Source of the DNA: Acidimicrobiia bacterium
GTDB taxonomy: Bacteria > Actinomycetota > Acidimicrobiia > Spongiisociales > Spongiisociaceae
Assembly (NCBI GenBank): GCA_011523635.1
Contig: WTGI01000088.1
Span: forward strand, 1-64,000
DNA length: 64,000 nucleotides
Reading direction: 5' to 3'
The notes under the pieces were generated by a model, which saw only the letters and a list, made by a program, of their open reading frames with translations, did not search any database and was not told where the DNA came from. The position numbers were made by a program, and so were the translations under genes. Of this stretch, positions 14,700 through 20,286 are shown in pieces. The number at the start of each line of letters is the position of its first letter. Position 1 is the stretch's first letter.

Positions 14700-17183
14700 A
14701 TGACGGATCCCGGCCACCCCGCAGCCGCGCCGCCACCGGATAGCCCGTCCGGCGGAGCGCTCCCCGACCGGGTCCAGGTGGTAGTGGTCGGTGGCGGGAT
14801 CGTCGGGTGCTCGATCGCCTATCACCTGGCAAGGCGGGGCATCACCGACGTGTTGCTCCTGGAGCAGAACACCCTGACCGGGGGGACCACCTGGCACGCG
14901 GCCGGGCTGGTAAGCCAGCTCAAGTCCAGCCACAGCCTGACCAGACTGGCGACGTACACCGCCCGCCTCTTCGAAGAACTAGAGGACGAGACCGGCCAGT
15001 CCACCGGATACCGCACCACCGGATCGATCTCGGTGGCCTCGGACGAGGAGCGGTGGGAGGAGATCCTGCGCGGCATGTCGATGGCCAGGACGGCCGGCGT
15101 GGAAATGGAGGTGATCGACCCCGAGCGGGCGCGGGAGTTGTGGCCTCTGCTGCGCATCGACGATCTGGTGGGCACGGTCTACATACCCGGGGACGGCCAG
15201 ACCAGCCCGGTGGACACCACGATGGCGCTGGCCAAGGGCGCCAGGGACCGGGGGGTCACGATCCGCGAGGGCATCGCGGTGGAGCGGGTGCGGGTGGAGA
15301 ACGAGGCGGCGGTCGGGGTCGAGACCGAGGCGGGCTACGTGGAGGCGGAGACGGTGGTCCTGGCCTGCGGTATCTGGACCCGCCAGCTGGCGGCATCCGC
15401 AGGCGTGAACGTGCCGCTCCATGCGTGCGAGCACTTCTACGTGGTGACCGAACCGCTCGACGGGATGCTGCCGGGGATGCCCACGCTGCGCGACCCGACC
15501 AACTACACCTACTTCAAGGAAGAGACCGGAAAGCTGATGGCCGGGTTCTTCGAGCCGAGGGCCAAGACCTGGAAGTACGAGGTCCCACGGGACTTCACCT
15601 TCGGCACCCTTCCGGACGACTGGGACCACATCGGGCCGATCTTCGAGAGGTCCATCCACCGCATCCCGGCCCTGGCCGAGTGCGGGATCCAACTCTTCCT
15701 CAACGGACCCGAGGCCTTCACACCCGACGGCGTCTACTACCTGGGTGAGTCTCCGGAGGTGGACAGCCTCTACGTCGCCGCCGGGTTCAATTCGGTCGGA
15801 ATCCAGTCGGCCGGTGGGGCGGGCTGGGTGCTGGCGGACTGGATCGCCGAGCGGCACCCTCCGATGGACCTGGCGGCGGTGGACCTCCGCCGGGCCTTCC
15901 CGTTCCAGGGCGGCAAGGCTTACCTGGAGGACCGCATCTCGGAGAGCCTCGGGCTGCTCTACGCCATGCACTGGCCCTTCCGCCAGTTCGAGTCGGCCCG
16001 CGACGTGTTCCGGTCGGTCCTCCACGACCGCCTGGACGACCTGGGCGCCGTCTTCGGGGAGGTGGCCGGATGGGAACGACCCAACTGGTTCGCCATCGGT
16101 GATATGGAACGTGAGTACCGGTACTCGTACGGCAAGCAGAACTGGTATTCGGCCTCCGCCCCCGAGTGCGCGGCCACCCGCAGGAGGGTGGCGCTGTACG
16201 ACCAGTCCTCCTTCGCGAAGTTCCGTGTCGAGGGACCTGGCGCCCTGGCCGTCCTGAACCGCATCGGAGGCGCGGACGTGGACACGCCGATCGGAAAGGT
16301 CGTCTACACGCAGTGGCTCAACGACCGGGGCGGCATCGAGGCGGATCTCACCGTTACCCGCACCGGTCGGGAGGAGTTCATGGTGGTGACGGGCGCCGCG
16401 GTGGCCAACCGGGACTACCACACCCTGCGACGGGCGCTGCGGGGCCATGACGCCGACCTGGCCGACATCACGATGGAACTACCCACCATCGGGGTCATGG
16501 GGCCGCGGTCCCGAGCCCTGCTGAGCGCCCTGACCGACACCCCGCTCGACAACGCATCCTTCCCGTTCGGATGGTCACGGGAGATGACAATGACCGGCAT
16601 ACCCGTACGGGCGCTGCGGGTCAGCTACGTCGGCGAGCTGGGCTGGGAGCTCTACGTCGCCCGCGAAGCGGCCGTAGACCTGTTCGACGCGGTGATGGAG
16701 GAGGGAAGGGCACACGGCATCCATCCGGCCGGATACCACACGATGAACACGCTACGGCTGGAAGCGGGCTACCGGCACTGGGGCCACGACATCACCGACG
16801 AGGACACCCCGCTGGAGGCCGGGCTCGGCTTCGCGGTGGCATGGGACAAGGAAGGCGGATTCCTCGGGCGTCAAGCCCTCCTCGCCCAACGGGCCGCCAC
16901 CCCGTTGCCAAAGCGGCTCGTCCAGTTCAAGCTGGAGGACCCGGAGGCCATCGCGTACCACGACGAGCCGATCCACCGCGACGGTGTCCTGGTGGGCCGC
17001 ACCACCTCCGGCATGTACGGACACACCTTCGGCGCTTGCCTGGCCATGGGATACGTACTCCGCGATGAAGGCGTGACCCGCGAGTGGATCGAGTCGGGAA
17101 CATGGGACATCGAGCTGGCCGGAGTCCGCATCCCCGCCACCGCCCAGTTGAGGCCGTTCTATTCCGCCCGAACCCGCACCTGA
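14700..17183 (+). CDS. FAD-dependent dimethylglycine/sarcosine dehydrogenase-like protein with GcvT domain
   Basis: The 827-residue protein has the layout of dimethylglycine and sarcosine dehydrogenases. A DAO flavin domain (about 20-390) has the dinucleotide motif VVVVGGGIVGCSIAYHLARRG and the likely covalent-FAD histidine in GGTTWHAAGL. A short FAO_M linker follows, then a GcvT-like folate-binding domain (about 450-810), including LEAGYRHWGHDITDEDTPLEAGLGF. It would oxidatively demethylate an N-methyl amino acid, passing the one-carbon unit to tetrahydrofolate. It is last in the aminotransferase-ald operon. The actual N-methyl substrate cannot be told from sequence. Confidence 0.9.
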   Translation: MTDPGHPAAAPPPDSPSGGALPDRVQVVVVGGGIVGCSIAYHLARRGITDVLLLEQNTLTGGTTWHAAGLVSQLKSSHSLTRLATYTARLFEELEDETGQSTGYRTTGSISVASDEERWEEILRGMSMARTAGVEMEVIDPERARELWPLLRIDDLVGTVYIPGDGQTSPVDTTMALAKGARDRGVTIREGIAVERVRVENEAAVGVETEAGYVEAETVVLACGIWTRQLAASAGVNVPLHACEHFYVVTEPLDGMLPGMPTLRDPTNYTYFKEETGKLMAGFFEPRAKTWKYEVPRDFTFGTLPDDWDHIGPIFERSIHRIPALAECGIQLFLNGPEAFTPDGVYYLGESPEVDSLYVAAGFNSVGIQSAGGAGWVLADWIAERHPPMDLAAVDLRRAFPFQGGKAYLEDRISESLGLLYAMHWPFRQFESARDVFRSVLHDRLDDLGAVFGEVAGWERPNWFAIGDMEREYRYSYGKQNWYSASAPECAATRRRVALYDQSSFAKFRVEGPGALAVLNRIGGADVDTPIGKVVYTQWLNDRGGIEADLTVTRTGREEFMVVTGAAVANRDYHTLRRALRGHDADLADITMELPTIGVMGPRSRALLSALTDTPLDNASFPFGWSREMTMTGIPVRALRVSYVGELGWELYVAREAAVDLFDAVMEEGRAHGIHPAGYHTMNTLRLEAGYRHWGHDITDEDTPLEAGLGFAVAWDKEGGFLGRQALLAQRAATPLPKRLVQFKLEDPEAIAYHDEPIHRDGVLVGRTTSGMYGHTFGACLAMGYVLRDEGVTREWIESGTWDIELAGVRIPATAQLRPFYSARTRT

Positions 17184-17522
17184 CCCGCGAGCAGAGACCA
17201 TGTATCTGATGGCTAGGGCTACTAGGATTAGTTATACCATTTCACGGATGGGTAGAATGCGAAACGGCGGCCTGCCGGGTGCGACCCCCAGGGATCGGCC
17301 AGACTCTCGGCGTGGCCACCATTTGCTTACGCTCTAACTGTCGGAGACAACTGGCGTTGTTGCCAGCATACGGGCCCCCTCAAGCATACGAGGCTGGTCG
17401 GTCGGAAATGTAACTCTGCGTTCCTGGCTGTTTCGAGTAACTTGTTTGCTCGATGTGACAGGTCGTGATCGCATGCGCCAACCCATTCCCTTGGGATCCT
17501 CGCCGGTACCGGTGCTTGGCCG
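17184..17522. other. Intergenic region upstream of the imidazolonepropionase-like gene
   Basis: This 339-bp gap is less GC-rich than the genes around it, notably 17205-17250 (TTAGTTATACCATTTCA) and 17405-17465. The second stretch includes CGAGTAACTTGTTTGCTCG, an imperfect inverted repeat (CGAGTAA/TTGCTCG) that could be an operator or hairpin for the gene at 17523. No coding signal, tRNA or known riboswitch is recognisable. Confidence 0.4.
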
Positions 17523-18854
17523 ATGATCTGTAGCTTCTGCGGGACCCGGGCGGAAGATGCCGGGAACCTGGTCATGGGCGAGGCGGGCGCCGCCATCTGT
17601 GATGCCTGCGTGGACCTCGCGGTCGGCCTGGTGCGGGAGCAGGCCACGCCGATCGGCAACATGGTGCTGGACAACATCGGCACCCTGGCCACCAACGATC
17701 GGCGTTTCCCCGGTCTGCTGGGTCTCGTAACGGATGCCGCGGTGGCGATCCGCCGCGGCCAGGTGGTCTGGGCGGGGCCCTCGGAAAGAACGCCCCAGGG
17801 ACTCCGGTCTCTGCCCAGCCTGGACTGCGGGGGCCGGGCGGTTCTTCCGGGACTGGTGGACGCCCACACCCATCTGGCGTTCGCGGGCGACCGGAGCGAG
17901 GAGTTCGTGCTCAGAAGCACCGGCATGCCCGAAGCCCGCGCGGTAGCCCACTCCGGCAGCGCCACAACGGCCCGCCTCAATCACCTCGCTGACGCCTCCC
18001 GGATCACCAGCGTCATCGGCCGGCGGCTGAACCGCATGCTCGACTTCGGCGTCACCACGGTCGAAGCGTCCGCCGGGTACTCGAACGACTACGGACGGGA
18101 GCTAGCCCTCATTGACATGGTGGTAGAAGCGGGCCGGCGTCACGTTGTGGACCTGGTACCCACGTTCGACGTGCGGGGGTTGCCGGTCACCGCATCCGAC
18201 CGTGCGAGGACTCTGGATGAAGTGGCCGAGCTACACCTTCCCGGGGCGGCGAGGCTGGGAGCCGCGGTGCGGCTGTCACTCGGAGCAGACGCCCTGACAC
18301 CGGACGAAGCACGTCGCCTCATCGGGGTAGCGGCCGGCCTCGGGACCCGGACCCGGATTCACCATCGGGGCCAGACCCCGGATGTGTACAAGTTGGCATT
18401 GGAAGCCTCGGTCCCGGTGGTCGACCACGCCGGGTATCCCGACCGGGACCAGGCCGAACAGATGGCGGAGATGGGAATCAGCGTGGTCATCACCCCCACT
18501 GCGGTGCTCGGGACCCGCCGGTCACCTGCTTCGCTTCGCAAGCTCATGGAGCGAGGCGTCCCGTTGGGGCTGGGAACCGACTGCAGCCCGGCGCCGGTCA
18601 TGGTGGAGTCGTTACCGCTCGCCATCACGCTGGCCGTCACCGAGATGGGGCTCACCTCCGACCAGGCCATATGGGCGGCCACGATGGGCAGCGCCCAGGC
18701 ACTGGGCCTGGGCGACCGGGGCTGGCTGGGCCACGGCGCCGCGGCTGATCTGATCGTTCTCGACGCCCCCAGCCCGACCCACCTTCCCTACCGGCCGGGC
18801 ACCAACCTGGTGTGGAAGGTGCTCAAGGCGGGCGAGGTGGTGGTGAGCAGATAA
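17523..18854 (+). CDS. Imidazolonepropionase-like amidohydrolase with N-terminal ClpX-type zinc finger
   Basis: The 443-residue protein begins with a four-cysteine module (Cys3, Cys6, Cys26, Cys29; CSFCG, then ICDACVDLAVGLVRE) that matches the zinc-binding domain of the chaperone ClpX. From Met47 it continues as an amidohydrolase of the HutI type: NIGTLATND, the metal pair HTH in VDAHTHLAFAGD, HH in RIHHRG and the metal Asp in GLGTDCSPAP. HutI opens imidazolone-5-propionate in histidine breakdown. Several HutI loops are changed (ASAGYSNDYGRE, TDCSPAP), so the substrate may differ. No other hut gene is nearby. The zinc finger is in frame without a break. A true fusion is likely, but Met47 is an alternative start. 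Confidence 0.82.
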   Translation: MICSFCGTRAEDAGNLVMGEAGAAICDACVDLAVGLVREQATPIGNMVLDNIGTLATNDRRFPGLLGLVTDAAVAIRRGQVVWAGPSERTPQGLRSLPSLDCGGRAVLPGLVDAHTHLAFAGDRSEEFVLRSTGMPEARAVAHSGSATTARLNHLADASRITSVIGRRLNRMLDFGVTTVEASAGYSNDYGRELALIDMVVEAGRRHVVDLVPTFDVRGLPVTASDRARTLDEVAELHLPGAARLGAAVRLSLGADALTPDEARRLIGVAAGLGTRTRIHHRGQTPDVYKLALEASVPVVDHAGYPDRDQAEQMAEMGISVVITPTAVLGTRRSPASLRKLMERGVPLGLGTDCSPAPVMVESLPLAITLAVTEMGLTSDQAIWAATMGSAQALGLGDRGWLGHGAAADLIVLDAPSPTHLPYRPGTNLVWKVLKAGEVVVSR

Positions 18855-18896: not shown

Positions 18897-19715
18897 ATGT
18901 CCCTTCCCGTCGCTCTCACACACGAGCACCCGATCGCCATGGCGCACCGGGGATCGGGGTTGCTGTGGCCCGAGAACACGATGGTCGCCTTCCAGGGCGC
19001 GGTCGATCTCGGCTACAGATACTTGGAGACCGACCTCCAGATCACCCGGGACGGCGTGCTGGTCACCATCCACGACGACACGGTCGACCGCACTACCGAC
19101 GGCACCGGCCTCGTGTCCGACTACTCCCTGGAGGAGCTCCGGGCCCTCGACGCCGGCTACCGATTCGAGCGCGAGGGCGGTTACCCCCATCGAGGACAGG
19201 GAATCCAAGTGCCAACGCTCGAAGAACTGGCCGTCACCTATCCCGCCGGCGTACTCGCCGTCGACCTGAAGAGCGACGGCATGGAGGCGGCCCTGGTGGA
19301 CCTCATCCGCCGTCTCGACCTGTGGGATCGGTTAATAGTCGGTTCGTTCAGCGGGTCCCGCCTGCGCCGGTTCCGGGCGCTGGTCGACCGGCCGGTGGCA
19401 ACCTCGGCCGGCCCCTCCGAGATTGTCAGGTTTCTGGCCGCAGCGCGGGCTCGCATGCCGTACCGGCCTCGGGCCGACTCCTTCCAGGTGCCCGTCAGGG
19501 ATCGTGGGATCACCATCGTCAGCGCCCAGACGGTCCGGGCCGCTAGGAGGTTAGGGGTTCCGTTAATAGTATGGACGGTCAACCATCCGGCTGAGATGGA
19601 AGGGCTGCTGGACCTGGGAGTCGACGGTCTCATCACCGACCGTCCGGACCTGCTACGAACCCTCCTGGCCGAGCGCAGCCGGAACGCAAACCGGAAGGAA
19701 CCACGTGATGGGTGA
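18897..19715 (+). CDS. Glycerophosphodiester phosphodiesterase
   Basis: The 272-residue protein is a GDPD-family TIM barrel that releases glycerol-3-phosphate from glycerophosphodiesters. Motifs are the catalytic His in MAHRGSGLLWPENT, the metal-binding ETDLQITRDGVLVTIHDDTVDRTTDG broken across two strands, and the C-terminal IVWTVNHPAEM with GVDGLITDRPD. There is no signal peptide, so it should be cytoplasmic. It overlaps the next gene by 8 bases, and sits 42 bp after the amidohydrolase gene, so the three may be cotranscribed. Confidence 0.93.
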   Translation: MSLPVALTHEHPIAMAHRGSGLLWPENTMVAFQGAVDLGYRYLETDLQITRDGVLVTIHDDTVDRTTDGTGLVSDYSLEELRALDAGYRFEREGGYPHRGQGIQVPTLEELAVTYPAGVLAVDLKSDGMEAALVDLIRRLDLWDRLIVGSFSGSRLRRFRALVDRPVATSAGPSEIVRFLAAARARMPYRPRADSFQVPVRDRGITIVSAQTVRAARRLGVPLIVWTVNHPAEMEGLLDLGVDGLITDRPDLLRTLLAERSRNANRKEPRDG

Positions 19716-20286
19716 CTGGGTAGAGGTCGGTCAGGTCGTCAAGCTCCAGATCCACCGGCGACACCAGCGTGACGAAGGGATATACCGGCTCGATCCCCTA
19801 GCCGAAGTGTCCACCTTGCGGCTCACCCCGAACGGGCCGATCGGATTCGACGGCAACTCGTGGATCGTGGACTGCCACCACCGATATCACCCGCAGGCCA
19901 GCACCCACCGCCCGGGCCGGGCGCTCTCGATCGGATTCACCTCTCACTACGAGGACATCTGGAAGCGGTTCACACCGATCCCGCTCGGCGCGAGCGGGGA
20001 AAACGTAATCGTCTCCAGCGACGAGGTCATCTCCGAAGCCGAATTGGATGGAGGGATCCGCATCGGGACTCCCGAGGCCTCGGTCATGGTCGCGGGCCCC
20101 AAGGTGGCAGAACCGTGCGTGGCCTTCACGCGTCTGGTGACCGGTCGGGCCGAGGCCTCGGCGAGCGACCTGGCCGAGGATCGGGAGCGGCTCCGCAACG
20201 GAATCAGGGGCTTCGTCATGCCCCTTGATGGAATCGACCTCTTCGACGTGGTACCCGGCATGCCGGTTGCGATCCGAGCCGCCTGA
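19708..20286 (+). CDS. MOSC-like domain protein
   Basis: The 192-residue protein has a beta-rich character and segments reminiscent of MOSC domains: RALSIGFTSHYEDIWKRF followed by PLGASGENVIV, where MOSC proteins have a similar GEN motif. MOSC proteins act in sulfur-carrier and molybdenum cofactor chemistry. The usual conserved cysteine is not evident, so the assignment is tentative. The ATG at 19708 is preferred over the GTG at 19705 because AAGGAA is well placed. It overlaps the glycerophosphodiesterase gene. A family B repeat begins 22 bp after its stop. Confidence 0.5.
   Translation: MGDWVEVGQVVKLQIHRRHQRDEGIYRLDPLAEVSTLRLTPNGPIGFDGNSWIVDCHHRYHPQASTHRPGRALSIGFTSHYEDIWKRFTPIPLGASGENVIVSSDEVISEAELDGGIRIGTPEASVMVAGPKVAEPCVAFTRLVTGRAEASASDLAEDRERLRNGIRGFVMPLDGIDLFDVVPGMPVAIRAA

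Follow-up and report, generated by a model that had tools for sequence, protein, structure and literature searches.

In an uncultured Acidimicrobiia bacterium, a zinc finger of the ClpX type stands in frame before an enzyme that resembles HutI, the imidazolonepropionase of histidine degradation. The question is whether the two form one protein, whether that protein is still a HutI, and what the finger does for it. The window, i.e. the whole stretch of DNA analysed, comprises 64,000 nucleotides (contig WTGI01000088.1, assembly GCA_011523635.1). The fused gene, here termed ZFAH, occupies 17523..18854 on the forward strand, as do its domains and motifs, the gap before it and the GDPD and MOSC genes after it, and encodes an open reading frame of 443 aa. 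Residues 3-38 form the zf-C4_ClpX domain (PF06689; 17529..17636) with the codons for Cys3, Cys6, Cys26 and Cys29 at 17529, 17538, 17598 and 17607. Residues 39-46 (17637..17660) constitute a linker, which varies more than the rest of the N-terminal region (dN/dS 0.22). The HutI-like amidohydrolase domain identified with Pfam extends from Met47 (17661..18851). The entire protein scores 41.2 bits against PF06689 (E 1.6e-10, Pfam cut-off 27) and residues 1-46 alone 46.7 bits, a match far above chance, which bears out the finger and its in-frame position as first read from the letters. AlphaFold2 models the finger as a folded unit with a block pLDDT of 90-92. Upstream lies an intergenic gap of 339 bp (17184..17522), in agreement with the sequence-only reading, and the genome has a single further PF06689 match, the true clpX, which lies on a different contig. 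The gene before the gap is of the DAO/GcvT type. It codes for an 827-aa protein (14700-17183) similar to dimethylglycine/sarcosine dehydrogenases or a TMAO demethylase and adjoins a gene of the alanine dehydrogenase type. The DAO + GcvT gene precedes ZFAH in most loci of the window's family examined with enough flanking sequence, not in genome G011. No RNA family was detected in the window with Rfam.

A clpX fragment captured by chance and left untranslated, with Met47 as the true start, had been considered as an alternative. Met47 is indeed conserved in the window's family (f1), and no strong ribosome-binding site precedes the window ATG, judged by eye. Genome G004 lacks an in-frame ATG. Where its fused gene starts (L041:9930-9980), 17 bp (TGATATGTAGTTTCTGC) are duplicated in tandem; the ATG is thereby shifted out of frame and a CTG left, which represents either a real change of the start or an assembly error. 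However, a full-length protein with the finger is present in eight of the nine other species of the genus, with identities of 86-99%. Within the genus, dN/dS amounts to 0.086-0.10 for the finger and 0.145 for the enzyme. The 300 bp 5' of the ATG share 34-61% identity, compared with 86-96% for the finger, and the DNA of the gap diverges freely. Two further genera of f1 possess a fused protein with finger at 55-56% identity. Among 138 genomes of the order, the finger is joined to the N-terminus of HutI in the families f1, f3, f4 and f6 only, while f2, f5, f7 and f8 have HutI without finger. The search for the same domain order in related genomes and the substitution pattern of the finger, both suggested in the sequence-only reading, thus speak for a genuine domain. 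That reading had also called Met47 the usual HutI start. This holds for the conservation of the residue in f1, but in f4 and f6 the fused proteins lack a Met around position 47, and translation there must start upstream of the finger. For the family, conservation, codon pattern and the missing Met in f4 and f6 rule out a stray fragment or a start at Met47, and for the window itself the captured fragment retains next to no probability. The exception in the genus, G009, is without ZFAH. It also lacks hutU and is with 2.3 Mb the smallest genome of the genus.

The carriers are uncultured Acidimicrobiia represented by metagenome-assembled genomes. Outside the order, the fusion was found neither in 296 genomes of the class nor in 396 genomes of the phylum, nor among the non-Acidimicrobiia contig matches inspected. 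G302, a candidate for a fused member outside the order, proved to encode an unfused HutI. No report of a zf-C4_ClpX domain on HutI or another amidohydrolase was found in the literature. The architecture is new, the domains are known, and the history is unusual and well documented.

The fused finger resembles the zinc-binding domain (ZBD) of ClpX in its arrangement C-x2-C-x(18/19)-C-x2-C and in the CSFC...ICD.CV pattern. The four cysteines are invariant in all 33 complete fused sequences (residue table). In contrast to ClpX, ZFAH has no AAA+ domain; amidohydrolase domains alone follow the finger. The second and the third cysteine are separated by 19 residues in 33 of 33 complete fused fingers and by 18 in the 16 ClpX fingers compared, due to one extra residue before the third cysteine. 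A tyrosine conserved in all 16 ClpX fingers is Ala, Gly or Ser in each of the 33 fused fingers, and the LC of ClpX is LA or LF in most of them. Most genomes of the order have one clpX finger; in the fused families, ZFAH provides the second.

The enzyme part matches the amidohydrolase superfamily above the cut-off (PF01979 and PF07969, 65.1 and 72.5 bits), and the barrel fold agrees. Against the hutI equivalog model TIGR01224 with its cut-off of 298.15 bits, the window protein reaches 216.9 bits only. Fused proteins encoded in hut operons pass (f4, 410.8 bits; f3 genus g56, 426.7 bits). Fused proteins decoupled from the operon fail (f1g3, 244.8; f6, 289.3; f3g51, 99.5 bits). The window genome harbors in addition an unfused HutI paralog, which passes with 340 bits. 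Imidazolonepropionase-like, as first proposed, is thus the right name for the enzyme half and HutI the wrong one.

In HutI of Bacillus subtilis, the metal is bound by H80, H82, H249 and D324, and the substrate by R89, Y152, H185, N326, G328 and T329. Residue comparison showed that the corresponding metal residues of the window protein are all kept: His115 and His117 in the HxH motif (17865..17873), His280 as third metal histidine (18360..18362) and Asp353 (18579..18596). In the latter segment, the HutI substrate motif N-P-G-T/S has become S-P-A-P. All f1 proteins retain the metal residues and His272 and have lost H185, N326, G328 and T329 (B. subtilis numbering); in window numbering, f1 keeps His302. 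Every listed metal and substrate residue is present in the hut-operon fused proteins of f4 and of the f3 genera g52 and g56. In the fused proteins of f6, R89, H185 and the NGT residues are missing. In the f3 genera g13, g23, g50, g51, g54, g57 and g60 and in genome G051, the HxH motif and/or most other active-site residues are gone. Loss at the position of E252 (B. subtilis) was dropped as a sign of inactivity; unfused hut-operon HutIs vary there (HAEQ, HANQ, HADE).

The AlphaFold2 model of the window protein (pLDDT 92.4, pTM 0.88) aligns with imidazolonepropionases at a TM score of 0.82, the nearest structures being 2g3f and 2bb0 of B. subtilis. The f3g51 protein without metal site is also predicted to fold in barrel and finger (pLDDT 88.2, pTM 0.84), again with HutI structures as nearest neighbors. 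ZFAH shares with the imidazolonepropionases (TIGR01224; 2bb0/2g3f, Agrobacterium tumefaciens 2gok) the fold, the HxH motif, the third histidine, His302 and the metal aspartate, besides descent and the old operon position. It differs in the N-terminal ClpX finger, the score below the equivalog cut-off, the replaced positions H185, N326, G328 and T329, and the location away from hutU. A class-wide type of unfused HutI, found in f1, several members of f3 and families of the class, has Asn in place of the metal ligand Asp324 (S/T-N-C-N-P-G-S). Examples are L033:6379-7548, L223, L199, L194, L195, L196, L220 and L222, among others. These genes lie in the neighborhood of hutU, and L033, the copy scored against the hutI model, is above its cut-off.

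The gene order records the origin of ZFAH. Unfused genes in f2, f5 and f8 are arranged as hutU-HutI-GDPD-MOSC. In f4 and the f3 genera g52 and g56, the order is hutU-[ZF-HutI]-GDPD, with hutU 28-49 bp 5' of the fused gene in f4 and g56. ZFAH of f1 (the window included) and of most f3 members is followed by GDPD without an adjoining hutU, and in genus g9 of f6 the fused gene stands apart. The GDPD gene of the window (18897..19715) marks where the hut operon once was, since most families of the order have GDPD 3' of (ZF-)HutI; the MOSC-domain gene (19705..20286) follows it here as in the unfused operons. Since the ZFAH-GDPD order is kept, the window gene occupies the former place of hutI. A functional partnership of GDPD with the fusion was weakened as a candidate explanation. 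The linkage is an inherited position, because GDPD also follows the unfused HutI of f2, f5 and f8.

One assignment would leave ZFAH an imidazolonepropionase of histidine degradation with the finger as an accessory. It is right for the relatives in f4, g52 and g56, with their full residue set, their scores and, in f4 and g56, the closely preceding hutU. The window gene, however, is not beside hutU; the hutU of this genome sits on another contig (G000:C31) with the unfused HutI that passes the cut-off. The window protein stays below that cut-off and lacks the residues matching H185, N326, G328 and T329. In seven relatives (G010, G011, G023, G111, G113, G115 and G116), no hutU was found, though the fused gene is kept. 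For the window, a persisting role in the histidine pathway is very improbable. Residues, family cut-off and context together strongly suggest that its protein is no longer a HutI. An annotation as HutI would be correct in f4 and the f3 genera g52 and g56, and wrong in the family of the window. In the tree, the unfused HutI that took over in f1 and in several members of f3 clusters with class-wide sequences. The unfused HutI of f6 (L197, L198, L215) groups with proteobacterial HutI from Ruegeria and Shewanella, which suggests a lateral replacement.

Selection was estimated from pairwise sums of dN/dS and pN, and the intervals given are approximate. In the groups decoupled from the operon, the finger varies less than the enzyme, as in f3g51 (dN/dS 0.056 vs. 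0.169; pN ratio 0.43, 95% 0.15-0.82) and in f6 (0.057 vs. 0.113; 0.40, 0.09-0.85). The values for f3g54 are 0.032 and 0.123 (pN ratio 0.53, 95% 0.14-1.03), those for f1g1 0.094 and 0.148 (0.63, 0.23-1.18). Within the window's genus, the lower rate of the finger does not reach significance. An exception is f1g2, where the finger has 0.239 and the enzyme 0.208. In the hut-operon proteins of f4, both parts evolve equally (0.060 vs. 0.070; pN ratio 1.01). Finger and fold are under purifying selection. Together with the confident predicted folds, including that of f3g51 without metal site, this indicates kept proteins and not decaying genes. ZFAH descends from a hut-operon HutI, has lost HutI residues, and retains finger and fold, also in genomes without hutU. 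The sequence-only reading had missed that the window protein ceased to be a HutI, that the fusion in sister families is the HutI of the hut operon, and that members without metal site carry the finger.

The favored interpretation, which we consider probable, is a HutI repurposed around its finger: the protein would no longer serve as HutI and would act mainly through the finger as a protein-docking or dimerizing module. The hutI gene in the hut operon of this order is the ancestor of ZFAH, and the finger was fused to its 5' end, probably once in an ancestor of several families. In the family of the window, the adjoining hutU has disappeared, a separate hut cluster with unfused HutI has taken over or the pathway is absent, and the fused protein has been kept. 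Loss of the residues that hold imidazolonepropionate, with the metal site retained, would have ended the HutI function; in several f3 relatives, the metal site has vanished altogether and the finger has remained. In the simplest form of the proposal, the finger would, as in ClpX, dock a partner or dimerize, acting on another protein or on ZFAH itself. The barrel may be a scaffold, a ligand pocket or an altered hydrolase. We infer that the present role depends on the finger.

In the main competing explanation, ZFAH still works as an amidohydrolase but acts on a new substrate, and the finger merely stabilizes or dimerizes the protein without a link to Clp proteolysis. The f1 proteins with their complete metal site and His302 fit this proposal, as do the alignment of the model with imidazolonepropionases and the clear purifying selection on the enzyme domain (dN/dS about 0.15). 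With metal ligands and His302 intact, the window protein may still hydrolyze a new substrate. Yet most f3 relatives and G051 kept finger and fold after the loss of HxH and most active-site residues, and a plain stabilizer leaves unexplained that constraint is strongest on the finger in f6 and in two genera of f3 (pN ratio 0.40-0.53). As a full account, this explanation appears rather unlikely.

For a role through the finger, ClpX offers a precedent. Its ZBD forms dimers and is where adaptors dock, and in E. coli the isolated ZBD dimerizes and blocks the delivery by RssB to ClpXP (PMC7226468). A finger outside of intact ClpX can thus engage a ClpX adaptor. The isolated ZBD is an experimental fragment, whereas ZFAH is a natural gene. 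The sequence-only reading had named targeting to ClpXP among the possible effects, besides dimerization and control by adaptor proteins; the finger would here be a mark for ClpXP or a degron-like element. Dimerization and adaptor binding of ClpX ZBDs agree with such targeting (PMC7226468). However, the ClpX ZBD is a docking platform and not a degron, and degradation targeting alone gives no reason for the retention of the finger in proteins without metal site; this use of the finger is hardly plausible. In the repurposing interpretation, ZFAH could dock to ClpX or its adaptors, or compete with ClpX for them, which is conceivable but on balance doubtful. An engagement in the ClpXP/adaptor network would be the most specific variant of this interpretation, suggested by the identity of the finger. 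The replaced tyrosine means that docking of the ClpX type may not carry over to the fused fingers. More speculative still is the complete course of events: a fingered HutI that, after replacement or loss of the histidine pathway, became a finger scaffold docking or decoying ClpX adaptors, a regulator of ClpXP that persists without active site. If the finger indeed binds ClpX adaptors, evolution would have made a natural competitor of the unfoldase out of a metabolic enzyme.

A second precedent concerns the architecture. A report on cyanobacterial sigma-70 factors describes zf-C4_ClpX as accessory fusion, i.e. an add-on at the protein end as in ZFAH (PMC11119718). The partner there is a transcription factor, the partner in ZFAH a metabolic enzyme, and the passage on these fusions describes neither an operon exit nor a loss of active-site residues.

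It was further asked whether the fusion arose once or twice. A tree of 79 rows places the fused proteins in one clade with one change (SH-aLRT 81). A careful tree of 52 rows separates the hut-operon fused proteins from those of f1 and f6, and two changes are needed. The AU test did not reject a single fused clade (p 0.449). The topology is uncertain, since the fused proteins outside the operon sit on long stems, of 1.03 in f1, 0.80 in f6 and 1.52 in f3g51, compared with 0.15-0.34 in the hut-operon fused proteins. A single fusion event is suggested by the one-residue insertion, which the fused fingers share and which none of the 16 ClpX fingers in the comparison has. A single origin is thus supported as the likelier course, although not proven.

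The lineage preserves the stages side by side: unfused HutI, fingered HutI in the hut operon, fingered proteins that left the operon and have a changed pocket, and others that lack the metal site. The stages allow a test of what a captured docking domain did for an enzyme and of whether a second function gained through it outlived catalysis. Genome G133 (L225, G133:C174) encodes two more proteins with a ClpX finger in adjoining genes; a helix-turn-helix region accompanies the finger in one of them, a Clp_N domain in the other. The finger has been reused elsewhere too, possibly around further Clp functions.
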